IMG/VR virus record: IMGVR_UViG_3300008117_000011
Coordinates: 159,672-223,671 of that record
Origin: a virus
Strand: one strand, 5' to 3'
DNA length: 64,000 nucleotides
Shown here: positions 21,138 through 51,470 of the stretch, piece after piece
How the letters are laid out: each line of letters begins with the position of its first letter
Position numbering within the stretch: position 1 is the stretch's first letter
The notes under the pieces: model-generated
The model's input: the letters and a program-made list of their open reading frames with translations, nothing else
Told to the model about the DNA's origin: nothing
The model's database searches: none
Program-made: the position numbers and the translations under genes

Positions 21138-23219
21138 ATGAGAGTTAAAGTAAAACACGTAAAATGTGATATGTCTGAAAAGGACAAAGAACTTATGAAC
21201 GATTTTATTAAGTTCTTACAGAAGAAGTATCCTTTAAAGGATGATATTACTATTATTTTTACCGGTGAAAGATATGGTAAAATGTCCACAGGTAGTAGGA
21301 CACAAGATTCTGAACTTAAGATTTTCACTAAAGACAGAATGAATAGGGATATTGTAAGAACATTAGCTCACGAATGGATACACGAAAGACAAATTAAAAT
21401 CCAAGGTAAAAAACCAAAACAAGATATTGGTGGTCCCCTTGAAGATGAGGCAAACGCAAAAGCTGGTTCTGCAATTAAACAGTTTGAAAAGGAGTTTCCA
21501 AAAAAAGAAGAGTTAATGTACGAAGGTATAAATAATAAGTTAAATCTGATTAACGAGCAAATCTTATTAAAGGAAAAGGAAAATATTAAAGGTGAGTTTT
21601 TAACCGAAATGAAAAAAATCGGTATTGAAAAATTACCTTATTCATATTCAGCTTTAAAACAATTTGTGGATCCGGAAACAATGGATATTCATTACAACAA
21701 ACACTATAAAGGTTATGTCAAAAAATTAAATGACGCTCTTTCTAATAAAAAAGGTGAAATGGAGCTTGAGGATATTGTAAAAACAATATCAAAGTTTAAC
21801 ACTAAAGTTAGAAACAATGCTGGTGGTGCTTTTAATCACGCGTTATTTTGGAAAATGTTATCACCAAAAAAACAATTACCAAAAGGTGAGATATTAGAAA
21901 AAATTACAAAACAATATGGTAACATCAAAAAAATGAAAGATGAATTCAATGATGTTGCTAAAGAAAGATTTGGGTCCGGATGGGTTTGGCTTGTTTTAAC
22001 AAAGACAAATAGACTTAAAATTATGTCAACACCAAACCAAGATAATCCACTTATGAATGTTATTAAAGATGGTGGATATCCACTTTTAGGTTTAGATTTA
22101 TGGGAGCATGCTTATTATTTGAAGTATAGAAATAAAAGGGATGAATACATTAAAAATTTCTGGAATTCTGTAAACTGGGAATTTGTAAATGAACTTTTTG
22201 TTTCAAAGACAACAAAAAAGTTAAATGAATCATATATGAAAATTTTATTAGAAAACGAGGATTTACAACCAGATCTGAAAAAAATTATGAGTCGTGAATT
22301 ACAAAAAATTAGACTTATACCATTAGATGCTGAGGCAGGAGCCGAAGCAATTAACAACATTACAACAGCTGAAATTTCAAGGGGGAACCTTGACTTTAAT
22401 AGGACTATAAGTGGACTTATGACTCTTGATTTATCAACTGTTTCTGAAAGATCAAAATATAGATTTAATAATTATTTTCAAAGATTTATTAAAAGCAAAA
22501 CTAGAGGTTTTGACTTTGAGGGTATGGTTACCGGATTTCTTGATGGTGAACTAGCAACAAGCTTATCGTCTCCTTATGATATCTCAACATCAGAGGGAGA
22601 TTTAATTTCTTGTAAAGTAGTTAGAGACACTAATGAAAGAATATCACTTAAAAGTATTAGGACTGGGGTTAAAGATTTTGTTGAGAAATACGAAGGGTCA
22701 GAAGAAAATAAATATATATTAAGTGGGTTAACTCAATTTCCAAATTTTTTAGAACTAGTTGTAACACACGAAAATTCAGATATACAAAATCAAGGTGAAG
22801 ATATTTTAAACAAATTACTTATTGATATTACAGGATTACTTGTTGGTGTACCAAACTCACAAAATCTTGGGGTTGATTTATACTACTATGATAAAGCTCG
22901 TCTAATTGAACTTGCTAAAACACCAGGAATTCTAAAAGCTGGAAGATCAGCTGAAGCTCAAACAATATCCTATTCGGCTAAAATACTTAAAATGGGTACA
23001 ACCAAAAGTGGGTTTATTCAGTTTCCGATTGTTACTCAAGAACAATATGCCGAATTTTTAATTGGTAATGAAAAAACAAAAGAAATTGTAAATATTTTTA
23101 ACACTATGGGTGAAAAATATGGAGTCCCAAGATTAGGTGACAATATCCCACAAGATATTATTAGGGATTTATCAAAAAATGAAAGATTCAAATTAGATAT
23201 TAGAAGAATACTTAAATAA
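21138..23219 (+). CDS. Metallopeptidase - superoxide dismutase - nuclease-like fusion
   Basis: This 693-aa protein has three parts. Residues 1-130 carry HEWIH (78-82) and a downstream LEDEAN (101-106), a zinc-metallopeptidase arrangement. Residues about 163-352 are a full-length Fe/Mn superoxide dismutase (LPYSYSAL; ligands H185, H234 in NHALFW, D320 and H324 in LDLWEHAYYLKY). Residues 373-693 are unidentified; FDFEGMVTGFLDGE, then YDIS and LISCK suggest a PD-(D/E)XK-type nuclease fold, weakly. The junctions hold L/I-x-E sites (INE 138-140, LKE 144-146, LLE 370-372) like T4 prohead protease targets. I infer a possible capsid-packaged polyprotein. The next gene is a gp13-like neck protein. Confidence 0.85.
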   Translation: MRVKVKHVKCDMSEKDKELMNDFIKFLQKKYPLKDDITIIFTGERYGKMSTGSRTQDSELKIFTKDRMNRDIVRTLAHEWIHERQIKIQGKKPKQDIGGPLEDEANAKAGSAIKQFEKEFPKKEELMYEGINNKLNLINEQILLKEKENIKGEFLTEMKKIGIEKLPYSYSALKQFVDPETMDIHYNKHYKGYVKKLNDALSNKKGEMELEDIVKTISKFNTKVRNNAGGAFNHALFWKMLSPKKQLPKGEILEKITKQYGNIKKMKDEFNDVAKERFGSGWVWLVLTKTNRLKIMSTPNQDNPLMNVIKDGGYPLLGLDLWEHAYYLKYRNKRDEYIKNFWNSVNWEFVNELFVSKTTKKLNESYMKILLENEDLQPDLKKIMSRELQKIRLIPLDAEAGAEAINNITTAEISRGNLDFNRTISGLMTLDLSTVSERSKYRFNNYFQRFIKSKTRGFDFEGMVTGFLDGELATSLSSPYDISTSEGDLISCKVVRDTNERISLKSIRTGVKDFVEKYEGSEENKYILSGLTQFPNFLELVVTHENSDIQNQGEDILNKLLIDITGLLVGVPNSQNLGVDLYYYDKARLIELAKTPGILKAGRSAEAQTISYSAKILKMGTTKSGFIQFPIVTQEQYAEFLIGNEKTKEIVNIFNTMGEKYGVPRLGDNIPQDIIRDLSKNERFKLDIRRILK

Positions 23220-30298: not shown

Positions 30299-31276
30299 TT
30301 ATGTGTATTTTAAATATTCATTAACACCAATCTTTAAATATGTGTCTTGATCAACTAATATTGGATTTATTAACATTATTTGTGGGGTTGGTGAAGGTGT
30401 TGGTGTTGGGGTTGGTGAAGATGTGGGTGTTGGTGTGGGTGTTGGGTAATTTTCATAAACCTCAAAATATAAATTTGGTGGGTAAACCACAAAATCACCA
30501 AACGAATCTATTTTAGTTAATATGTTAAAATCTTCATTAATTATTACTTCTGTATTACCAATAGTTTCCCCAATAGGAATTGTAACACCAGTCATTATTG
30601 TTATTGGACTTCCACTTGTTCCTAAATTATGAGTAAAACTCATACTTATTTCCTCACCATATGTTTGATTTGATGTTAAGTTATAATTAATAACAATAGA
30701 TCCTGGTGCTATATCAACATCTAATATAACCGTTAATGGTGTATTTGTAGTTGTCGTTGTTGTAACTGGTGCTTCTGTAGTCGTCGTTGTTGTAACTGGT
30801 GGACACGGTGGACAAGTAGGACAAGGTGTTGGCGTTGGTGGAATTGGTTTTTTTGTTGTTGCGCAACAAGGGAATCCAGTTTCATAACAACCATCTCCAG
30901 GTTCTAAGTCATCAGCAATAAAACTTTCTTGAACGTTTATAAACAATTTTTCTCTAATTGGTAGAATTAACGTTCCATCGCTGGATATAAAAATAAATTG
31001 ACCTTCAAATCTACCAACTTTTCTAGTATCAAACTTCCTAAATTGATAATAAACATAATATTCTGGTTCGGCATTTGGGTCAAGCATTGTCTTTGCAACA
31101 ATGCCAGCTGGACGTGTGGTAATTTTTGGAACCCCAGTCTCAACATCAACCATAGAAAAAAATATGGCAGATTGTTCTATTAAATCCATCATATTATTAT
31201 AATCGCTACGACCATCCTTTACGACTTGCATTTTAAGTAAAGGGAGTGAAGAGTTCTTTTTAATGAAAAATTCCAT
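30299..31276 (-). CDS. Structural protein with Thr/Pro mucin-like linkers
   Basis: Residues 1-125 of this 325-aa protein form a beta-rich domain (KKNSSLPLLKMQVVKDG, then SAIFFSMVDVETGVPKI, then FEGQFIFISSDGTLILPIREKL). I have seen this type in T4-like environmental phages, and it likely attaches to the virion. Then come a Cys/Pro stretch (PTPTPCPTCPPCPP) and Thr runs (about 142-180), an Ig-like or Calx-beta-like domain (about 180-275) and a second PTPTPT linker (about 279-299). A 25-residue C-terminal tail ends GVNEYLKYT. The Thr/Pro segments are potential O-glycosylation sites, noteworthy beside the glycosyltransferases encoded next to it. Function is otherwise unknown. Confidence 0.7.
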   Translation of the reverse strand: MEFFIKKNSSLPLLKMQVVKDGRSDYNNMMDLIEQSAIFFSMVDVETGVPKITTRPAGIVAKTMLDPNAEPEYYVYYQFRKFDTRKVGRFEGQFIFISSDGTLILPIREKLFINVQESFIADDLEPGDGCYETGFPCCATTKKPIPPTPTPCPTCPPCPPVTTTTTTEAPVTTTTTTNTPLTVILDVDIAPGSIVINYNLTSNQTYGEEISMSFTHNLGTSGSPITIMTGVTIPIGETIGNTEVIINEDFNILTKIDSFGDFVVYPPNLYFEVYENYPTPTPTPTSSPTPTPTPSPTPQIMLINPILVDQDTYLKIGVNEYLKYT

Positions 31277-31303: not shown

Positions 31304-32938
31304 TTAACATTCTTTTCTTAATTCTGCTGGATAAAAATCAAAACGATTATGTTCGGTTGGTGTTATAAGAAGAAGTCCAGGATTTAATTTACCTTTAACT
31401 AAATTTTGAAAGTTATGGGACATTAAAGTTTGTTCATAAGGATTGTCAAATTTTGTCTCAATATAACATTTGTAATTACCTTCTTTTGATAAGACAATTG
31501 GCCAATTAGAAAGATAGATTTCCCCACTAGCGTAGGGGATACCATTTAATGATTTTATATTTTTAAATTCTAGACTTGGGGCGCTTGGATCATAACCAAC
31601 AACTGGTAGATTTGGTTTTTCCGGCCAATGATTTTCTCTGAAACTTTGGGGTGTATTGTACCAAGCCCATTGTGTTGTGTGACTTCCGAAAAATTCAGTA
31701 AAATTTAATTTTAAAAAATCAAAATTTTCTTTTTTAATTATTTGTAATGACGTACTATATAAATTTTTTACTTTTCTATTAAAACCATTTTTACAAACAT
31801 CACAATCTTTAGTAACAAAAGCCATATCGTCCTCAAAGAAATAGTAATAACCCAAATCGTCTTGTTGATTAAAGTGTTCGGCAATAAATTGTCTACCACC
31901 GGTAATACCTATATTATCTTTTTTAATATGTTCAAAACCATATTGTGAACAAAGATTTAAATATTCTTTTGTTGTTGTTAAATCCGTTGAGTTATCCAGT
32001 AAAAATTTTTTTGTTTTTGTTATAAAATCTATATCGTACTCTAACATTGATTCAATTAAAGTTTCAAATTGTTTTGGTGAGTTAAACGTAATAACATATA
32101 GACCAACATCATTACCTTCTTTTTTTACTTTATTATTTTTAATATTTTCAAAAAACGTATATAATAAACCATCAGAATTAATAAGGTAATTATCAATTAA
32201 ATTTGGGTGTAAATAACTCATAATCGTAAAGATACTTTCTTCTGTTCCCATTAAATTATTATTTAATGTATGTGTAAGTAAACTATAATATATTGTGTTT
32301 AAATCGCTAATATATTTTTTAGGACCACCAAAAAAACCACCCCTACTTACATAGTTTGTTTTTGTTTTTGCATACTCACATAACTTATCGTATGAAAATC
32401 CGTGAACCTCTGTGTTTGCCTCATATGGAAAAGATATAAATAAAAACTTATCGTATTTTTTATTTATTTTCTCAAGAACATTATCATTTGTGAAATATCC
32501 TGGACTTACTGTGTTTGAGATTCCAGCGTCAATCCAGAATAGTTTTTCAGAATTAAATTTATCTAAAATTACAGCATCGTGCAGTAAAAACATTTTAGAC
32601 ATTACAATTGGATTATACATCTCAAGTTTTGCTTGTGTTGATTCTTTTAACCAACCAACTTGATTGTACCAATTTTCATTTGTTCTTATTTTTTGTATTT
32701 TGTCAAAAAATTCATTATTTCTAAACCAAGAAAGGTCCCGGATAATAAATTGTGTTTTTGACATATCCCTTCTTTCACTAACAAATTTATAAAGAGATTC
32801 GTCCCCAAAAATTATGAGATTACAATCAATTTTTAATAAATCATCAAATTTATTTAAATAGTAATCAAAAGACCTATTCCATCCTTTTTCTAAATTACCC
32901 CTACCAATATCCCATAATCCGGTAACAAGTGTCATCAT
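31304..32938 (-). CDS. Two-domain glycosyltransferase: HtrL/YibB-like plus GT-A
   Basis: The N-terminal half (residues 1-260) resembles the HtrL/YibB/WlaTC family: LVTGLWDIGRGN, RSFDYYLNKFDDLL, IIFGDE, then LFWIDAGISNT and RGGFFGGPKKYI. That family is tied to capsule or lipooligosaccharide synthesis. The C-terminal half (about 270-540) has a GT-A-like core: VGLYVITFNSPKQFETLIESM, then ITGGRQFIAEHF and a metal-binding YYFFEDDMAF. Its 3' region ends KGKLNPGLLLITPTEHNRFD. The stop-proximal TATTTAT element belongs to the next gene, and this gene overlaps the upstream GT by 4 bp (ATGA-type), so both are co-translated. The acceptor sugar or protein is unknown. Confidence 0.75.
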   Translation of the reverse strand: MMTLVTGLWDIGRGNLEKGWNRSFDYYLNKFDDLLKIDCNLIIFGDESLYKFVSERRDMSKTQFIIRDLSWFRNNEFFDKIQKIRTNENWYNQVGWLKESTQAKLEMYNPIVMSKMFLLHDAVILDKFNSEKLFWIDAGISNTVSPGYFTNDNVLEKINKKYDKFLFISFPYEANTEVHGFSYDKLCEYAKTKTNYVSRGGFFGGPKKYISDLNTIYYSLLTHTLNNNLMGTEESIFTIMSYLHPNLIDNYLINSDGLLYTFFENIKNNKVKKEGNDVGLYVITFNSPKQFETLIESMLEYDIDFITKTKKFLLDNSTDLTTTKEYLNLCSQYGFEHIKKDNIGITGGRQFIAEHFNQQDDLGYYYFFEDDMAFVTKDCDVCKNGFNRKVKNLYSTSLQIIKKENFDFLKLNFTEFFGSHTTQWAWYNTPQSFRENHWPEKPNLPVVGYDPSAPSLEFKNIKSLNGIPYASGEIYLSNWPIVLSKEGNYKCYIETKFDNPYEQTLMSHNFQNLVKGKLNPGLLLITPTEHNRFDFYPAELRKEC

Positions 32939-34182
32939 AAATTACCAACTATTCTTTCTCCCCAACCTTTTGATGCCGAGTGTGGCCATACAACCCAATA
33001 CGCTGGTTTTTCTGAGGTGTTAAATTCTCTCCATATTTTTCCGTAACCATCTGGATCATTTTTTATTCTATTAATTTCATCTGGTTGTGCGTCTTGCCTA
33101 AATAGGGTTTCATCATTTTTATTATGAAACGCAACAACAAAGAAATTATAATCTGTTTCCGGAACCTTATCTAATGGCAAATCAATACAATGTTTGAATA
33201 TTGTAAAGAAACTTTTTTCCCAATCCTCTTCTGTTGAAAAATCGTATGGGTTTGGTGGATACTTTTTATCTAATGTATATTGTTGTACTGACCTATTTGA
33301 AAACTTTATTCCGGCGTACTTTTCATAGTCCTTAATTGTTCTTTCAGAACCAAATCCATACTTACCAAGGTCTTCTTCATATTTCTCATTATCAATACCA
33401 AGTATCTTTCTATTCTTTTCGTGTGATGAATTATTTTTCTTCCACCATTCTTTATTGTCATCCCATTGTTTTGTTCTGTTCTTTCTGGTGTACTCGTGCC
33501 AGATAACAACTTTATGTGGGTGAAACAAATCATATCCGTGAGTAAATGCCCTAACGGCAATTGATATTTCTTCTCCGTGAAAATAATAATCCGGGTCGTG
33601 CTGAACTTCCGTTGAGAATTGTCCTAACGTGAAACAAAAATGTGCCGAGTAAAATCTAGCCCTTAATGGTTTTTTAATTTTTTGCCACCCTGGGATTACC
33701 TCTGGTAGAAAAAATACAACTCCTTCCGGTGTGAATCTATCAAAGGCCATTCTCCAAGGTTCACCAACTCTACCAGCCGGGTCGTTGTCCGGATCAAAAG
33801 ATGAAACATAACCTGTAAGTAATGGTTTTTTAACTCCATCTTTTTGTAATCCTTGTAACATTCTGATTAAGATTTGATCCCAGTTTTTCTCAAAACGCAT
33901 GTGGGAATCAACTTGAAGAGTATACTCTTCTCCTTTATATAATTGTTGTACCTGGTTTCTAGCCCAACAAACACCTGTTGATTCTGAATATAAGACATCT
34001 AAAATTCTAAATCTTTCATCATCTTTATATTCCGATAAATCATCAAAACCATCTTCTGGATGATACTGACGACAAATACCAAAAACTAAATTTTCTGGGT
34101 GTTTTGCGTTTGATAAACAATCTTTAACTGTTGGGATAAGTTGGGGGTCTCTATATGATGCAATTTGTATAAAAATCTTCAT
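32935..34182 (-). CDS. GlcNAc-type glycosyltransferase (PF11397-like)
   Basis: The 415-aa protein begins KIFIQIASYRDPQLIPTVKDCL and contains CWARNQVQQLYKGEEYTLQ followed by VDSHMRFEKNWDQ, the signature of the 'glycosyltransferase (GlcNAc)' family related to eukaryotic Skp1 prolyl-GlcNAc transferases and bacterial surface-polymer enzymes. A second conserved block is FYSAHFCFTLGQFSTEV, then YYFHGEEISIAVRAFTHGYDLF, with a final WHEY. The C-terminal 130 residues carry an extra domain (YNFFVVAFHNKNDET). Donor is probably UDP-GlcNAc, by family; acceptor unknown. It is divergent from the 34.3 kb glycosyltransferase, with a roughly 110-bp A/T-rich gap in which no clear promoter was found. Confidence 0.85.
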   Translation of the reverse strand: MKIFIQIASYRDPQLIPTVKDCLSNAKHPENLVFGICRQYHPEDGFDDLSEYKDDERFRILDVLYSESTGVCWARNQVQQLYKGEEYTLQVDSHMRFEKNWDQILIRMLQGLQKDGVKKPLLTGYVSSFDPDNDPAGRVGEPWRMAFDRFTPEGVVFFLPEVIPGWQKIKKPLRARFYSAHFCFTLGQFSTEVQHDPDYYFHGEEISIAVRAFTHGYDLFHPHKVVIWHEYTRKNRTKQWDDNKEWWKKNNSSHEKNRKILGIDNEKYEEDLGKYGFGSERTIKDYEKYAGIKFSNRSVQQYTLDKKYPPNPYDFSTEEDWEKSFFTIFKHCIDLPLDKVPETDYNFFVVAFHNKNDETLFRQDAQPDEINRIKNDPDGYGKIWREFNTSEKPAYWVVWPHSASKGWGERIVGNL

Positions 34183-34293
34183 ATAGAAAAATTAACGATT
34201 TTTTATTTTAAATAAATAATATTCAAAACCTAATTCTATATATTTCTACTAATGTTTTACTATTTTTTTCATAACAATTAATTGATAACTTTA

Positions 34294-36414
34294 ATGAAAA
34301 AATTAATGATAATAACACCCCATTTGTCAACAGGGGGTCAACCACAATTCTTATTAAAAAAGATTGAATTATTAAAAGATACGTACGACTTATACTGTGT
34401 TGAATATAACTTTGTGTCTCCAGATTTTGTTGTACAAAGAAATAAAATAAAAAATTTATTAATACTTAATTTTATCTCATTAGAAGAAAATGAATTGAGA
34501 TTGACAAATGTTATTAAGGATATAAATCCAGATATAATTTGGTTTGAGGAGTTACCAGAAACGTTTATAACAAACGAAGAATGTGAGTACATTTATAAAA
34601 AAGAAAGAAGTTGGCAAATAATTGAAACGACCCATTCCTCCCAAGATTTAAGTTTTAAAAAAAGATACGCTCCGGATAAATTTATTTTTGTATCCGATTT
34701 ATCAGTTAAACAATACGACAATTTAGGAATTGAATCTTCAGTAATTCAATACCCAGTAAACAAGAAAACAAAAAATACTGACAACTTTAAAAGTAAGTTA
34801 TCATTTGATAATGAGTATAAACATATTGTAATTGTTGGGTTATTTACCCAGGGTAAAAATCAATCGTATGCTTTTGATATTGCAAGAAAATTAGAAAAAG
34901 AAAAAGTATTATTTCACTTTGTTGGTAATACTGCAATCAATTTTAAAGACTACTGGGAACCACTACTTTTAAATAAACCTAAAAATTGTATACTACACGG
35001 AGAAAAAGAAAATATTGATGATTATTTACAAGCTTCTGATTTATTTTTATTTCCCTCAAAATTTGAATTAAATCCTTTGGTTGTTAAAGAAGCTCTTTGT
35101 TATGATGAGTTACCTATTGTTATGTTTAATTTAGAATCATATTGTGGTCAGTATGATAATGAACCTAACATTAGTTTTATGAAAAATGACATTAATATTG
35201 ATTCAAAACTAATTAAAGAATTACTTTTTGGTAAAACCAAGACCTATCAAGATATTGAGGGTTGGTTTTCATATGAAGAACTATACAATAAATTTGTAAA
35301 CGAATGTTCTGATGGAAGTACAATTGTTGAAATTGGTAGTTGGTTTGGTAAATCAACAAAATACATTTCAGATAAAATAAAAGAAACAAATAAAAATGTT
35401 AAGTTAATTTCTGTTGATACTTTTAAAGGGTCTCAAAATGAGCAACTCCATATAGATACTGTTGGTAATTTTGATAATGACATATATCAAATTTTCTATG
35501 AAAATTTAATTGGTAATAAAATAGAAGTAATAAAAGACTCTTCACATAACGCTTCTAAATTATTTAACAATGGGTCCATTGATTATCTAATGATTGATGG
35601 GGATCATAGTTATGAAGGTGTTAAAAATGATATTGAAGATTTTTTCTACAAAGTTAAACCGGGTGGTATTATTTCAGGTGATGATTATGTAGTCTTTGAT
35701 GGTGTAACAAAAGCTGTAAATGAGTATTTTAATGGGACTCAAAATATAACAACAAACGGATATAACTGGTATTATAAAATACCTAAAATTCAAGTAATTC
35801 ATATTTCAACATTACCTAAGCAAAAAAGGGCTATAAAATCAATTACAAATATAAAAGAGTTAAAGAGATACAACATTGATATTAAGTTTATTGAGAATTA
35901 TGTATATGATGGTGAAGTTGATGTATCAACCCACAGATATCCAGAAAGTCAAAATATAAATAAGGGTCACTATGGTTGTTATTTAGCACACAAAGAGGCA
36001 ATACATTCAATTGATAATGACTATGACTATACAATTATAATGGAGGAGGACGCTTACATTTTTGAGAATCTTAATGATTTTGTTGATATAGTTCATAAAG
36101 CCATTTTTAATTGTATTAAAGATGAAATATACTTTGTATCATTTGGTGGATTAATTTTAGATTACGCACTAAACGAATATGATAATTTATTTAATGAGTG
36201 TTGGCATCAAACTATGGCTCATTGTTATATGATACCAAACAAGTATAAACAATGGTACGTTGATAAATTTGAGACTAGCCCTTGGGATTCGGCAGATCTT
36301 TGGTTTAACCATATTTTTTGTCACGATAGAAAATTAAGATTAATAACCAAAAAATTCTATAGTAAACAACTAGATGGTACCTCACTTATTGATAATGTAA
36401 AAAAAGAATATTGA
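34294..36414 (+). CDS. Triple fusion: GT4 glycosyltransferase, methyltransferase, GT25
   Basis: From the ATG at 34294 (a TTG at 34282 is a weaker start) 706 residues follow. Residues 1-320 form a GT-B, GT4-like enzyme (MIITPHLSTGGQPQFL; IVIVGLFTQGKNQ; LFLFPSKFELNPLVVKEAL). Residues about 335-500 form a class I SAM methyltransferase (IVEIGSWFGKSTKYI; YLMIDGDHSYEGVKND; KPGGIISGDDY). Residues about 505-706 are GT25-like (VIHISTLPKQKRAI; HYGCYLAHKEAI; IIMEEDAYIFE), a family of LPS galactosyl- or related transferases. One polypeptide could extend and methylate a glycan. The next gene begins two bases after its stop. Confidence 0.88.
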   Translation: MKKLMIITPHLSTGGQPQFLLKKIELLKDTYDLYCVEYNFVSPDFVVQRNKIKNLLILNFISLEENELRLTNVIKDINPDIIWFEELPETFITNEECEYIYKKERSWQIIETTHSSQDLSFKKRYAPDKFIFVSDLSVKQYDNLGIESSVIQYPVNKKTKNTDNFKSKLSFDNEYKHIVIVGLFTQGKNQSYAFDIARKLEKEKVLFHFVGNTAINFKDYWEPLLLNKPKNCILHGEKENIDDYLQASDLFLFPSKFELNPLVVKEALCYDELPIVMFNLESYCGQYDNEPNISFMKNDINIDSKLIKELLFGKTKTYQDIEGWFSYEELYNKFVNECSDGSTIVEIGSWFGKSTKYISDKIKETNKNVKLISVDTFKGSQNEQLHIDTVGNFDNDIYQIFYENLIGNKIEVIKDSSHNASKLFNNGSIDYLMIDGDHSYEGVKNDIEDFFYKVKPGGIISGDDYVVFDGVTKAVNEYFNGTQNITTNGYNWYYKIPKIQVIHISTLPKQKRAIKSITNIKELKRYNIDIKFIENYVYDGEVDVSTHRYPESQNINKGHYGCYLAHKEAIHSIDNDYDYTIIMEEDAYIFENLNDFVDIVHKAIFNCIKDEIYFVSFGGLILDYALNEYDNLFNECWHQTMAHCYMIPNKYKQWYVDKFETSPWDSADLWFNHIFCHDRKLRLITKKFYSKQLDGTSLIDNVKKEY

Positions 36415-36415
36415 T

Positions 36416-38233
36416 ATGAATTCACAAATATTTAAAGAAACAATCATTTCGGAAATAGAAAAAACAAATTTAACAAATAATAAAATTGGTGATATTTTAA
36501 AATTTATTTACACACAAATAAATGGTGCCTTTTTAGAAATAAAAGGTAATGTTGATAAAAATTTTAATGTTAGTTTTGAGGATGACCAGGGAAATATAGT
36601 TTATCAAACTGAATTAAAAACTGATATGTGGTCAAGACTAAATGCTAAGTATTTTAAAAATTATACAATAAAAATACAAAATGATGATTACTATAATGAA
36701 ATAAAAACCGATTTAAAAGATAAAAGAATTTATATAACTCTTGAGTCTAAATCATTAGGTGATACTTTGGCCTGGGTTCCTTATGTTGATGAATTTAGAA
36801 AAAAACATAGTTGTGATATAGTCCTATCAACATTTATGAATGATTTATTTAAGGAGCAATATCCGGAGATAGAATTTGTAGAACCAGGTACTTCTGTAGA
36901 TAATATATTTGGTATGTTTAATATCGGATGGTTTTATAATCAAAATGACGAAATTGATTACAGTAGACACCCAAATAATTTTAGAACTCAACCATTACAA
37001 AAAACGGCTTCAGATATTTTAGGTCTTGACTATGAAGAAATAAGACCAAAATTAAAACTAAAAGAAAATGTTAAAAAAGAAAAAAAAGTAGGTATTGCAA
37101 TACACGGAACCGCCCAAAGTAAGTATTGGAATAACCCAACTGGTTGGCAAGAGGTTGTTGATTATCTAATTAAACTTGGATATGAAGTTGTTTTATATTC
37201 TGTTGAGCCGGATGGTTATATGGGTAATTTTCATCCTACTGGAATTAAAAATTTCCCAAGAAGTCCATTACAAGAAGTAATTTACGATTTGCAAAGTTGT
37301 GAATTTTTTATTGGTATTGGATCTGGTCTTTCTTGGTTAGCCTGGAGTGTTGGTTTACCAACTATTTTAATATCCGGCTTTAGTGAGGAGTACACCGAAA
37401 CAAAATCAAATACTTATCGTGTTATAAATAATAATGTGTGTACCGGGTGTTTTAATTCCCATAGATTAAATCCTAGTGACTGGAATTGGTGTCCTATTCA
37501 TAAAAACACTGAAAGACAATTTGAATGTAGTAAATCAATAAATTCTAAATTAGTTATTAGTAAAATAAAACAAATTGGTTTTAACTGGGGTTTTTTTGAT
37601 TCAGACCAAAACTTTAAAAAACTAGTTGAGGAAGAATTATTTGTTAATAATATATATGAAAAGTATTTTAATATAAAAGATGGGGATATCGTAATGGATA
37701 TTGGTGCTAGTGTTGGTCCTTTTGTAAAATCATTATGTGATAGAAAATTAAAAAAGGTTTACGCTATTGAACCTAGTAAAACGGAGTTTAATATATTAGA
37801 AGAAAATATTAGTAATAAAAATGTTGTTTTAGTAAATAAAGCAATTGGTAATACAAATCAAACAAATTGTCAACTTGATGAAGTATATGGAGATGATAAG
37901 AGTGTTGACTATATTACTTTTGATAAATTATTAGAAGATTATAAAATTGATAAGATAGATTTTTTAAAATTAGATTGTGAAGGTGGTGAGTATGATATAT
38001 TCACAAATGAAAATTTAAAATTTTTAAAACAAATACCAAAAATAGTTGGTGAGTGGCATTTAAATGACCCAACAAAAAAAGAAAAATTTTTTAAATTTAA
38101 AAATGAAATTTTGTCAAACTTTTCTAAATTTACAATAAATTCAGTTGATGGTTACGATATAACACAAAGACTAAACGATCAAAATTTTATAGAGTATTAT
38201 AGTGAGATTTTAATCTACATTGAAAATAATTAA
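36416..38233 (+). CDS. TibC/Aah-like O-heptosyltransferase fused to FkbM methyltransferase
   Basis: The N-terminal 400 residues look like bacterial autotransporter heptosyltransferases (BAHT; TibC/Aah): ITLESKSLGDTLAWVPYVDEF, VGIAIHGTAQSKYWNNP, FFIGIGSGLSWLAWSVGLPTILISGF, then a four-cysteine cluster (about residues 341, 344, 359 and 371, in CTGCF, NWCPIH and FECSKSI) that binds iron in TibC. This family transfers heptose to Ser of repetitive beta proteins. The C-terminal 180 residues are an FkbM-type methyltransferase (VMDIGASVGPFVKSLC; YAIEPSKTEFNILEENI; FLKLDCEGGEYDIF). A GT that O-glycosylates proteins beside so many fibre genes suggests virion glycosylation. The stop overlaps the next convergent stop by 4 bp. 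Confidence 0.88.
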   Translation: MNSQIFKETIISEIEKTNLTNNKIGDILKFIYTQINGAFLEIKGNVDKNFNVSFEDDQGNIVYQTELKTDMWSRLNAKYFKNYTIKIQNDDYYNEIKTDLKDKRIYITLESKSLGDTLAWVPYVDEFRKKHSCDIVLSTFMNDLFKEQYPEIEFVEPGTSVDNIFGMFNIGWFYNQNDEIDYSRHPNNFRTQPLQKTASDILGLDYEEIRPKLKLKENVKKEKKVGIAIHGTAQSKYWNNPTGWQEVVDYLIKLGYEVVLYSVEPDGYMGNFHPTGIKNFPRSPLQEVIYDLQSCEFFIGIGSGLSWLAWSVGLPTILISGFSEEYTETKSNTYRVINNNVCTGCFNSHRLNPSDWNWCPIHKNTERQFECSKSINSKLVISKIKQIGFNWGFFDSDQNFKKLVEEELFVNNIYEKYFNIKDGDIVMDIGASVGPFVKSLCDRKLKKVYAIEPSKTEFNILEENISNKNVVLVNKAIGNTNQTNCQLDEVYGDDKSVDYITFDKLLEDYKIDKIDFLKLDCEGGEYDIFTNENLKFLKQIPKIVGEWHLNDPTKKEKFFKFKNEILSNFSKFTINSVDGYDITQRLNDQNFIEYYSEILIYIENN

Positions 38234-38501: not shown

Positions 38502-41402
38502 TTATCCTACCCAAGTTAACTTAACATAACTGTTCCACCAGAACGTAGTTGGTGCTGCATTTGTAGTATTTTGAGCACCCTGAACGCTTACAGTTACCGT
38601 TGTTACCGGCGCTAGAGTACCTTTTATTGTATAAATACCAGCTCCAGCTGTATTTGTTGCAAATTCTGAACCAGCAAATATAGTTCCTCCGGCGGCAATT
38701 TGATTATTTTCGTATAAACCATTACCAACACTATAATTACTTCCTAGGTCAATTCTACCCCAGGTTCCAGAAACTGTTAGTAATCTTAATCTTGCACCAC
38801 CAGCACCAGCTGTTACCCTACCATATAGTTCAATTTCATATATTGACCCAGCGTTAAGAACAAACGTCATACTAGGTAAATCAACAAATGTGTTATTAGT
38901 GAACGCTAAATCATTAGTTTGTCTAATAAAATCACCATAAAAAACTTTATGTCTAGCATCACTATTTGTTGTATATAGTTGATTACTATTATATTCTATC
39001 GTACCAGCCTCTGGTGTTGTATTTAATGTACCATTAGTAAATTTAAGAGGTGCAGTTCCAGCGGTTGCAGCTCCAGCTCCTAAATGTAGTTTTGCTGTTG
39101 GTGTTCCTTGTGTAATCCCAATAGCATTGGCGGACGCGTCTAAAAAAAACATATTTGTTTGCGTGTCTGACTCAATTCTAAAATCTGAATTAGCATCCCC
39201 CACTTCATTAAATATACTACTACCCTGAGTTGATCTGTATGCAATATTAGTGGTTCCAATAGAGGCTATCGCTTCAAATGCGATATTAGTTGCAGTCCCA
39301 TTAACAGAAGAATCAACCCCAATTGATGTACCACCAACAGAATCTGCGGAAGCTCTAAGACCAAATGTTTGCCCATTGGATGCATTTGATCTTCCGACCA
39401 GTAATCCACTTGATGGTCCTCCCGCCGCAGCAACACTTGATTGGTTAACAATACTATAAGGGTTTGCAAACGTTGTTGTTAAAAGCGAAGCGTTCCCTAT
39501 AAGATCAAGATTAAATGATGGTGTTGTATTTATACCTAGTTGCGTCCCATTAAATATTAAATTTGCTTCGCCTTGTAGTGTATTTGCCGTTCCGGTTGCT
39601 GTTACTACATAGTCATTTACGTTATTGTTTATAATAACACTAGCACCAGATGTCCCAGAAGAACCCCCACTACCTGCAGTACCAGAAGTACCATTAACTC
39701 CAGATGTTCCAGAAGTACCATTAACTCCAGATGTTCCAGAGGATCCACCACTCCCACTAGTACCTCTAGTGCCACTTGTCCCAGAAGAACCTCCACTACC
39801 CGCAGTACCACTCGTTCCATTTATTCCAGAAGTTCCAGAAGTTCCATTAACGCCAGAAGTCCCACTCGTTCCATTTATTCCACTAGTTCCACCACTACCC
39901 GCGGTACCTGATGTACCGTTAATACCAGAGGTTCCACCACTACCAGAAGTCCCTCTAGTACCACTTGTACCACCACTACCTGCGGTACCACTCGTTCCAT
40001 TTATTCCAGAAGTTCCACTCGTTCCATTTATCCCACTAGTACCAGAAGTTCCTGAAGAACCTCCGCTACCTGCAGTACCACTCGTTCCATTTATTCCAGA
40101 AGTTCCATTTATTCCACTTGTACCTCCACTACCAGAAGTACCATTTATTCCACTTGATCCTCCACTGCCAGAAGTTCCAGAGGTACCATTTATACCGGAA
40201 GTACCACTCGTTCCGTTAATACCAGAAGTCCCAGAAGTTCCACTCGTTCCGTTAATACCAGAAGTCCCAGAAGTTCCACCACTACCAGAAGTCCCTCTAG
40301 TACCACTCGTACCACTTGTTCCGTTAACACCAGAAGTTCCATTTGTTCCATTAATGCCAGATGTCCCTGAAGTTCCATTAATACCAGATGTCCCTGAAGA
40401 ACCACCACTACCAGAAGTCCCAGAAGTTCCAGAAGACCCCCCACTACCAGCAGTACCACTCGTTCCATTTATTCCCCCACTACCAGCAGTACCACTCGTT
40501 CCGTTTATTCCAGACGTGCCAGAAGTTCCTGAAGAACCTCCGCTACCGGATGTTCCATTAGTCCCATTTATTCCACTAGTTCCTGAAGTACCCCCACTAC
40601 CAGAAGTTCCACTTGTACCACCACTGCCCGCTGTACCTGATGTGCCATTAATACCAGAAGTTCCTCCGCTACCTGCAGTCCCACTCGTTCCGTTTATTCC
40701 AGACGTGCCAGAAGTTCCTGAAGTTCCTGAAGAACCTCCGCTACCGGATGTTCCATTAGTCCCAGAAGAACCACTTGTTCCGGATGTCCCATCAATTCCA
40801 CTAGTACCAGAAGTTCCGTTAACACCAGAAGTACCACTAGTCCCATCAATTCCACTAGTACCAGAAGTTCCGTTAACACCAGAAGTACCATTGGTTCCGG
40901 AAGACCCTCCACTACCGCTTGTCCCATTAGTTCCAGAAGATCCGCTAGTTCCATCAACACCACTAGTACCAGAGGTTCCATCAACACCACTAGTACCAGA
41001 GGTTCCATCAACACCACTAGTACCAGAAGTTCCGTCAACACCACTAGTACCAGAAGTTCCATTTGTTCCAGAAGTTCCATTAACACCACTAGTTCCAGAA
41101 GTTCCATTAACACCACTAGTTCCAGAAGTTCCATTAACACCACTAGTTCCAGAAGTTCCATCTACCCCACTAGTACCTGATGTACCGTCAATTCCACTGG
41201 TACCAGAAGTTCCGTTAGTACCTGATGTACCGCTAATACCATTGGTACCAGACGTTCCATCAATTCCAGAGGTTCCATTTATACCGCTTGTACCAGAAGA
41301 GCCATCTACGCCACTTGTTCCAGAAGTTCCATCTACCCCACTAGTACCGGAAGTTCCATCTACCCCACTAGTACCGGAAGTTCCATTTGTTCCAGAAGTA
41401 CC
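38502..41402 (-). CDS. Tail fibre: GTSG collagen-like shaft and C-terminal head (no own start)
   Basis: This open frame of 967 codons has no ATG, and its only usable in-frame start (GTG 39203) lies far inside. It continues the 169-aa upstream frame after a shift at a run of four C (41401-41404). About 580 residues are a Gly-Thr-Ser-Gly based shaft (GTSGTSGVDG, GTSGINGTSG, with G-S-G-G interruptions). Then come SVIINNNVNDYVVTATG, a region of GINTTPSFNLDLIGNAS type strands, TTNIAYRSTQGSS, and a head domain ending TFWWNSYVKLTWVG with jelly-roll-like repeats (FVLNAGSIYEIELYGRVT). It probably makes a trimeric collagen-like fibre. Total with the N-terminus would be about 1120 residues. Confidence 0.7.
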   Translation of the reverse strand, partial: GTSGTNGTSGTSGVDGTSGTSGVDGTSGTSGVDGSSGTSGINGTSGIDGTSGTNGISGTSGTNGTSGTSGIDGTSGTSGVDGTSGTSGVNGTSGTSGVNGTSGTSGVNGTSGTNGTSGTSGVDGTSGTSGVDGTSGTSGVDGTSGTSGVDGTSGSSGTNGTSGSGGSSGTNGTSGVNGTSGTSGIDGTSGTSGVNGTSGTSGIDGTSGTSGSSGTNGTSGSGGSSGTSGTSGTSGINGTSGTAGSGGTSGINGTSGTAGSGGTSGTSGSGGTSGTSGINGTNGTSGSGGSSGTSGTSGINGTSGTAGSGGINGTSGTAGSGGSSGTSGTSGSGGSSGTSGINGTSGTSGINGTNGTSGVNGTSGTSGTRGTSGSGGTSGTSGINGTSGTSGTSGINGTSGTSGINGTSGTSGSGGSSGINGTSGSGGTSGINGTSGINGTSGTAGSGGSSGTSGTSGINGTSGTSGINGTSGTAGSGGTSGTRGTSGSGGTSGINGTSGTAGSGGTSGINGTSGTSGVNGTSGTSGINGTSGTAGSGGSSGTSGTRGTSGSGGSSGTSGVNGTSGTSGVNGTSGTAGSGGSSGTSGASVIINNNVNDYVVTATGTANTLQGEANLIFNGTQLGINTTPSFNLDLIGNASLLTTTFANPYSIVNQSSVAAAGGPSSGLLVGRSNASNGQTFGLRASADSVGGTSIGVDSSVNGTATNIAFEAIASIGTTNIAYRSTQGSSIFNEVGDANSDFRIESDTQTNMFFLDASANAIGITQGTPTAKLHLGAGAATAGTAPLKFTNGTLNTTPEAGTIEYNSNQLYTTNSDARHKVFYGDFIRQTNDLAFTNNTFVDLPSMTFVLNAGSIYEIELYGRVTAGAGGARLRLLTVSGTWGRIDLGSNYSVGNGLYENNQIAAGGTIFAGSEFATNTAGAGIYTIKGTLAPVTTVTVSVQGAQNTTNAAPTTFWWNSYVKLTWVG

Positions 41403-41710
41403 CCAGAGGTTCCACTTGTACCAGAAGTACCATCAATACCACTAGTACCAGAAGTTCCATCAATACCACTAGTACCGGATGTTCCGTCAATACCACTAGT
41501 ACCATCAATTCCAGAGGTCCCAGAGGTTCCGTCAATCCCTGATGTACCAGAAGTGCCGTCTATACCAGAGGTTCCGTCTACCCCACTAGTGCCAGATGTA
41601 CCATCAATACCTGATGTTCCAGAAGTACCATCAACACCAGAAGTACCAGAAGTTCCGTCTATACCAGAGGTCCCAGAGGTGCCTGCGGTTCCAGAAGTTC
41701 CACTTGAACC
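39640..41710. repeat. Low-complexity GTSG-encoding tandem repeats
   Basis: Imperfect repeats of 9-18 bp encode Gly-Thr-Ser-Gly-(Ile/Val)-(Asp/Asn)-Gly units on the minus strand. They make large open frames in all three frames on both strands, which is an artefact of the periodic codons. The array spans about 2 kb and is a likely site of slippage and recombination. Confidence 0.9.
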
Positions 41711-41869
41711 AAAAGTTGTTGATATATAGTTTGCAACTTGATCTATTGTTGCCTTATATGAAGAACCCCCTGAATATTGTATTGTATCACCGGTATTTAC
41801 GATGTGAATTAATGTATCACCAGTTATATATGGGGCAATTGTTCTATCTGTTAATCTTTGTTGTGACAT
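41360..41869 (-). CDS. N-terminal fragment of the GTSG tail fibre
   Basis: The frame starts with ATG at 41869 and gives a compact attachment domain (RLTDRTIAPYITGDTLIHIVNTGDTIQYSGG, then YKATIDQVANYIS), followed by about 85 residues of GTSG repeats. It then runs out of frame at the C run 41401-41404: SGTSGTSGV is followed by out-of-register LLEQMELPVLVG and a stop at 41360. The register of the repeats continues in another frame, so this is the head end of the 38502-41402 frame and not a separate gene. The attachment domain is typical of fibre genes in related uncultured phages. Confidence 0.8.
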   Translation of the reverse strand: MSQQRLTDRTIAPYITGDTLIHIVNTGDTIQYSGGSSYKATIDQVANYISTTFGSSGTSGTAGTSGTSGIDGTSGTSGVDGTSGTSGIDGTSGTSGVDGTSGIDGTSGTSGIDGTSGTSGIDGTSGIDGTSGTSGIDGTSGTSGIDGTSGTSGTSGVLLEQMELPVLVG

Positions 41870-50618: not shown

Positions 50619-51470
50619 TTAACTACACATCCAACTATAAATATTTCCGTTAAAGTTGAAGTATGTTCTGTATATGTTATATGTTACTGGGAATCCACCT
50701 CCATCAACAATTGTAATTTGTCCATTGAGTATTGTTGGAATCACAAATCCATTACATCCTGACAAACTATCTCTAAATTTAGAAGGTTGTGCAAGACTTG
50801 TAGGTATTAAAATATATCCATAACCAAGACCGACATTAAATTCAACATAGGTCTCCACGACAGGATTTCTAGCATCAAATGTAAGTGATGGTACATCTAC
50901 TAGTGTAATATTTGTTTTATTAACCTTACCATAATAAATACCGAGCTCAGCTGGTGTTGGGCTCTTTGTAGGTGTTGGTGTTGGTGTATTTGTAGGTGTA
51001 ACCGTTGGTGTAACACTTATTGTAGGTGTTGGTGTTGGTGTAAACGCAGATGGTAATGGCGTAATACAAATATCCCAAGTCGCCGTAGGAGTTGGTGTTG
51101 GTGTCGCAGTCGGTGTTGACGTAGGTGTTTTTGTAGGTGTCGGTGTAACACTTGACGTAGGTGTAGGTGTCGGTGTAACACTTGACGTAGGTGTAGGTGT
51201 CGGTGTAGGTGTTCTTGTTGGTGTTGGTGTAGGTGTAGGAGTTGGTGTAGGCCTAGGTACATTTAAAATATACGGACAATCATCATCTAATACCAATATT
51301 GTATACGTCCCATAAATTTCTTGAGGTGGAATTAAAAGTCCCGGTTCAAATGTTAATGGTAATACGACAATACCCAGATTTATAACATCAAGTGAGTTAT
51401 CTGGTTTAAAAAGAACTTGAGCTTCTTCCCCATCATTATAAACGCTATTTATTGTAATTGTTTGACTCAT
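50619..51470 (-). CDS. Structural protein with long Thr/Pro mucin-like linker
   Basis: Residues 1-70 of this 283-aa protein form a small beta domain ([22 protein letters not shown]). Then about 110 residues (coordinates about 50940-51250) are almost purely Thr and Pro with Ser/Val interruptions, a mucin-like rod. Residues about 185-283 form a C-terminal domain ([21 protein letters not shown], then [12 protein letters not shown], ending [12 protein letters not shown]) probably a surface tip. Such rods are extended and heavily O-glycosylated in other organisms. Its start overlaps the next upstream gene by only a few bases. It is probably a virion decoration or whisker-like protein. Confidence 0.7.

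Follow-up and report, generated by a model that had tools for sequence, protein, structure and literature searches.

A TibC-like glycosyltransferase fused to an FkbM methyltransferase in a large phage, with a collagen-like rod as its probable acceptor

Introduction

TibC and Aah, the closest described systems, are bacterial autotransporter heptosyltransferases (BAHT) of family TIGR04414 (structures 4RAP and 4RB4; PMC4358343) whose genes neighbor an AIDA-type autotransporter. In TibC, D110 is the base, T226, K230, R286, and W305 are ligand residues, P300 is the stereoselectivity position, C339, C342, C358, and C370 are the iron ligands, and F265, V266, and F368 make oligomer contacts in a dodecamer, the first two at the hydrophobic tip of a beta-hairpin thumb (PMC4358343). 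R286 contacts adenine, and the activity of its Ala variant is lost or largely lost (PMC4358343). The second domain of the gene described here belongs to the FkbM-family methyltransferases (PF05050, TIGR01444), which have a SAM-binding core in common. Collagen-like Gly-X-Thr repeats of the BclA type, found on Bacillus spores, carry O-linked, partly methylated sugars.

TibC-like domains also occur in phages, namely in proteins of uncultured phages annotated as Aah/TibC (e.g. BFVD A0A6J5SVC1) and in WWT39291 of the cultured Microcystis phage Mel-JY01, which is annotated only as methyltransferase FkbM. Our literature search turned up no account of TibC-like enzymes or GTSG rods in phages, though such an absence is not proof. 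Here we describe a gene of a large aquatic phage that joins the two domains, and the collagen-like rod beside it.

Results

A TibC-like and an FkbM domain in one protein

We analyzed a window of 64,000 nucleotides, positions 159,672 to 223,671 of the viral record IMGVR_UViG_3300008117_000011. A 605-aa frame with an ATG start (36416..38233, +) encodes a BAHT-like glycosyltransferase fused to an FkbM methyltransferase, as judged from the frame itself, TIGR04414, TIGR01444, PF01075, PF05050, an AlphaFold2 model, and PDB fold matches. The TibC-like domain (aa 35-387; 36518..37576, +) was delimited by alignment to TibC and by invariant residues. Residues 49-387 match the NCBIfam model hepto_Aah_TibC (TIGR04414) at 1e-85 and 287.9 bits, above the curated cut-off of 200, and residues 56-381 match TibC (4RB4/4RAP) at 4e-56 in a phmmer search against the PDB. 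Behind it stands the FkbM-family SAM methyltransferase domain (aa ~398-603; 37607..38224, +), of which residues 426-560 match PF05050 (53.7 bits, cut-off 22.7) and TIGR01444 (67 bits, cut-off 37.7). Used as a probe, this domain matched the same phage only, at the sensitivity of the scan.

An AlphaFold2 model, with the window and locus sequences as input, has a mean pLDDT of 87.3 and a low-confidence linker at residues 390-401. Its top PDB matches are TibC chains (E ~1e-34; TM by target 0.80-0.84, with 0.84 for 4RB4); WaaC and ADP-heptose heptosyltransferase II rank after them as distant fold matches. At ~35% identity and a TM of ~0.82, the fusion shares with TibC and Aah the N-terminal beta domain, the GT-B core, and the iron finger. 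Profile score, residue conservation, and predicted model together exclude a chance match of the TibC-like domain. A prior sequence-only reading had placed a BAHT-like domain and an FkbM domain in this frame and had named a BAHT profile search as a check; both domains are borne out, and the fusion likely works as a protein O-glycosyltransferase of the TibC type with a sugar methyltransferase attached.

Conserved and altered residues

The four cysteines of the iron-finger motif (C342, C345, C359, and C371; 37439..37528, +) align in order with the TibC iron ligands, TibC numbering having been verified on the PDB sequence. These putative iron ligands are invariant in 33 of 33 non-redundant viral homologs and in all 19 of the nearest bacterial ones, so that the cysteine conservation expected earlier is confirmed. 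D116, T232, K236, and W307 of the fusion are the equivalents of TibC D110, T226, K230, and W305, positions that are likewise invariant across the 33 viral homologs. The same expectation for the nucleotide-sugar residues holds at these four positions and fails at R286, which is Val in the fusion, in a surrounding alignment that is ungapped. With groups labeled from locus numbers ahead of any reading of the tree, as in our other counts, Arg occupies this position in 69/69 canonical sequences, 1/33 viral homologs, and 8/19 of the nearest bacterial ones, where it is kept in L077-L082, L084, and L085 and missing in Methylococcaceae and Polaromonas. A further difference from TibC is Gly at P300. At the positions of F265, V266, and F368, the fusion has Tyr, Met, and Phe, respectively. 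The hydrophobic tip of the beta-hairpin thumb is missing or changed in several viral relatives.

The loss of R286 means that the donor pocket is altered within the branch and that the donor site of TibC is retained only in part. Moreover, an HldE-type adenylyltransferase (TIGR02199) was not found in the 223,671-bp phage record, the search for an ADP-heptose pathway being of TIGR02199 only. Phage-made ADP-heptose through HldE was accordingly set aside, and ADP-heptose, if used, is probably host-supplied. Given both the lost arginine in 32/33 viral homologs and the missing adenylyltransferase, heptose as the sugar and the name O-heptosyltransferase given to the protein earlier are extrapolations, and we do not retain the name. 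A 'cytidylyltransferase like protein' of Mel-JY01 was also considered as a donor-making enzyme and rejected, having no NCBIfam match at 1e-5.

A sister branch of the BAHT family

From 54 viral loci, the 80 top-scoring ones among 313 bacterial candidates, and plasmid examples found beside annotated autotransporters, we built a tree comprising 107 sequences. A branch with 99% SH-aLRT separates 61 canonical sequences from the viral sequences and the bacterial loci L067-L085; two divergent Thioalkalivibrio copies, which had been labeled canonical from their locus numbers, sit with the viral sequences. Within Methylococcales, canonical enzymes score ~655 bits against TIGR04414, compared to ~310 for members of the fusion's branch. 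In this tree, the TibC-like domain sits in a BAHT sister branch and not among the autotransporter enzymes. The fusion is homologous to the BAHT enzymes and passes their profile, but with neither the R286 arginine nor an autotransporter neighbor found, we class it with the sister branch and not as an autotransporter heptosyltransferase. Judging by their genes, L067, L068, L077, L078, and L083 among the bacterial contigs resemble phage contigs that were binned into MAGs.

WWT39291 of Mel-JY01 belongs to the same branch, and this phage resembles ours in carrying GTSG repeats (record positions 68-2167). Its domain order differs from that of the fusion, with other modules first and the TibC-like domain last. 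At 68-2298 of the Mel-JY01 record (L381), the GTSG repeats lie on the plus strand and an annotated hypothetical protein on the minus strand (739-2298); the rod gene appears to have been missed by the record's annotation.

The rod and the surrounding glycosylation genes

Where TibC and Aah have an autotransporter as gene neighbor, the fusion has a collagen-like (Gly-Thr-Ser)n rod, our proposed acceptor, directly downstream on the opposite strand (38502..41869, -), with (GTSG)n repeats and Gly at every third residue. In the window assembly, the rod lies in two frames with one frame switch inside the repeats. This is probably an assembly error, because in a sister assembly (L149; IMGVR_UViG_3300031963_008173) the rod is a single frame of 1163 aa. 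That intact copy matches Collagen (PF01391) at 278.9 bits, above the cut-off. No further GTSG-type repeat was found in the remainder of the phage record. A Pro-rich plus-strand ORF of 606 aa (39625-41445) is a spurious antisense shadow of the rod.

The fusion is preceded on the same strand, across a gap of 1 nt, by a 710-aa gene with GT4, Methyltransf_24, and GT25-like modules (34282..36414, +; PF00534 and PF13578 over cut-off, PF01755 weak). The two genes have a GC content of 0.26-0.27, compared to 0.34-0.35 in two neighbors, which is consistent with a mobile cassette. By tblastn and domain search, the GT4 module recurs fused or adjacent to the TibC-like domain in many relatives, in which the latter is usually C-terminal in a larger protein with the GT4 module ahead. 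The order of TibC-like domain followed by FkbM domain in one frame was found by local tblastn in no fewer than six further phage loci (L019, L162, L173, L179, L180, and L187). One of these, L019, encodes a single chain of 1519 aa with GT8-, GT25-, GT4-, and TibC-like modules plus FkbM, covering most of the modules that the two window genes contain. The recurrence supports the view that these modules work together to transfer, extend, and methylate sugars.

On the other side of the 710-aa gene lies a PF11397 'Glycosyltransferase (GlcNAc)' protein (32935..34182, -; PF11397 2.6e-69, phrog_24687 1.1e-164), which may act together with the fusion, being part of the same glycosylation region. This gene occurs in no fewer than 131 viral stretches and is 64-79% identical in the 78 best-matching other loci. 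The nearest cultured relatives of its product come from Xanthomonas phage XacN1 and from Stenotrophomonas phages. The region also contains a protein with an HtrL/YibB domain (PF09612, 5.9e-22; 31304-32938, -).

Other features bear on the phage at large. Its DNA polymerase matches only those of remote Salinibacter and Nostoc/Anabaena phages, at ~23% identity, its tail sheath matches T4-like phages at ~30% identity, and no tRNAs were found in it; we assign no host on these grounds. An Fe/Mn superoxide dismutase region (Sod_Fe_N, Sod_Fe_C) is present in full within a larger phage protein of 693 aa (21138-23219, +). Outside the window, at 1-100 kb of the phage record (G000; L004-L008), dozens of ORFs that otherwise differ start with similar peptides (MKRIIRLTESDLTRIVRRVI.., MNLQESIRRILREET.., and MKIIITESQ..), apparently a common N-terminal tag that may be a capsid-targeting or prohead-protease propeptide.

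The branch is associated with (Gly-Thr/Ser-X)n proteins

We counted Ser/Thr-rich arrays of five or more consecutive Gly-[T/S/A]-X triplets in flanks of up to 8-10 kb on each side of the enzyme. Such (G-T/S-x)n repeats lay near 34/55 viral and 15/19 bacterial genes of the branch, and near 0/68 canonical genes. Among non-redundant loci the contrast was 31/44 for the branch versus 0/62 (Fisher 9e-17, a value that, like the p-values below, overstates independence because the loci share ancestry), and for bacteria alone it was 15/18 versus 0/62. The other 13 of the 44 branch loci had no such rod in the flanks examined. AIDA-type repeats, searched by tblastn with two autotransporters, showed the opposite pattern, being present at 43/63 canonical loci and at none of 74 branch loci (0/55 viral and 0/19 bacterial).

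A small GTSGTSGTAG-repeat protein with an apparent signal peptide adjoins the enzyme in Methylobacter, Methylomicrobium, Polaromonas, and one more genome of the Methylococcaceae, and several gammaproteobacterial MAGs encode one or two lipoprotein-like proteins with similar repeats near it. All three bacterial repeat proteins tested in Pfam matched Collagen (PF01391). In L079, L082, and L084, which are from such MAGs, a conserved protein of ~275 aa (..HLIQAxTRLxRPLxRxLLxxGFTY..) precedes the enzyme and one or two GSSG/GTSG lipoprotein-like proteins flank it, an arrangement that is possibly an uncharacterized surface-glycoprotein locus.

Two further comparisons gave the same association. The first was a matched control of 54 non-redundant phage loci picked by a neighboring PF11397 gene and not by the enzyme; rods were found in 7/8 of the loci that carry an iron-finger enzyme and in 4/46 of those that do not (p=1.4e-5), where L158 and L164, with matches at 28-32% identity that lack the iron-finger motif, were left out of the members. 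The second covered 201 Methylococcales genomes, 11 of which exceeded the TIGR04414 cut-off (4 canonical and 7 branch). The Gly-[T/S] pattern occurred in six of the seven branch carriers, compared to 24 of the 194 remaining genomes (p=4e-5), and in none of the four canonical carriers; all six pattern-positive carriers had a signal-peptide GTSG protein within the few-kb locus around the enzyme. In the reverse direction, the enzyme was found in 7/120 viral stretches with the GTSG pattern, and in 7/60 of those of at least 10 kb, among the matches listed. The pairing is therefore one-way, and the rods are not locally dependent on the enzyme. Since rod and enzyme both lie in tail-fiber regions, the association in phages could be partly positional, an objection that the bacterial cases escape.

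Discussion

Because genes of this branch adjoin collagen-like rods in both phages and bacteria, the enzyme probably coats the phage's own fiber with modified sugars. We consider it fairly likely that the fusion is a two-step enzyme for virion-protein glycosylation whose acceptor is the (Gly-Thr-Ser)n fiber rod, and we infer the transfer reaction, acceptor, methylation target, and purpose as follows. The TibC-like domain would take a sugar from a nucleotide-sugar donor and attach it to hydroxyls of Thr/Ser in the rod, after which the FkbM domain would O-methylate the attached sugar. The GT4/methyltransferase/GT25-like protein, probably co-transcribed, might extend or modify the glycan further. 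Such a coat may serve rod stability, protease resistance, or the tuning of adsorption.

An alternative role is the modification of a host surface glycan or protein during infection, for superinfection exclusion or receptor masking as with other phage glycosyltransferases, the rod being a mere neighbor. TibC-like enzymes are GT9-related and have the fold of lipopolysaccharide heptosyltransferases, as the lower-ranked matches to WaaC and heptosyltransferase II reflect. We regard this role as unlikely, given that chromosomal bacterial enzymes of the same branch adjoin signal-peptide collagen-like proteins, that the fusion fits TIGR04414 far better, at 287.9 bits, than it fits the lipopolysaccharide enzymes, at 23 bits, and that its gene is positioned inside the fiber region. 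It also seems improbable that the substrate is another Ser/Thr-rich virion protein in place of the collagen-like rod. Thr-Pro rods do exist in the window (30299-31276 and 50619-51470), and several glycosyltransferases are encoded in the same region, but bacterial members of the branch adjoin (Gly-Thr/Ser-x)n proteins, with no Thr-Pro rods among the proteins read. Within the phage, we found no evidence that discriminates between GTSG and Thr/Pro rods; the cross-genome association holds for the GTSG type only. The earlier suggestion that the phage's own repeats are modified thus gains strong contextual support for GTSG, from the genomic surroundings in phages and, independently, in bacterial chromosomes. 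That the phage took up a host's canonical autotransporter O-heptosyltransferase, with an autotransporter of the host as substrate, would fit the above-cut-off TIGR04414 score, the iron finger, and the four retained active-site residues, but is very improbable given the separate branch, the lost R286, and the lack of AIDA-like neighbors throughout the branch. An autotransporter passenger as target was rejected on the same lack of neighbors and on the absence of any match to the strand-loop-strand target repeat TIGR04415 in the phage record.

With the rod as the preferred acceptor, the likeness to BclA is one of analogy only, in that the rod, like BclA, would be a glycosylated collagen-like repeat; the BclA enzymes are unrelated, and the setting there is the spore and not the virion. 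More generally, the evidence is about evenly balanced on a wider hypothesis, in which a second TibC/Aah branch, found in large phages and some proteobacteria, is dedicated to the O-glycosylation of collagen-like (Gly-Thr/Ser-X)n rods in place of autotransporter beta-helices, with a phage donor that may not be ADP-heptose and with fused methyltransferases capping the sugar. If true, this would supply a substrate class for enzymes that are now automatically annotated as 'autotransporter O-heptosyltransferases'. It would also mean that large phages encode enzymes which glycosylate and methylate their own collagen-like fibers, and it would connect phage fibers to the collagen-like surface proteins of bacteria, a family that has received little study.
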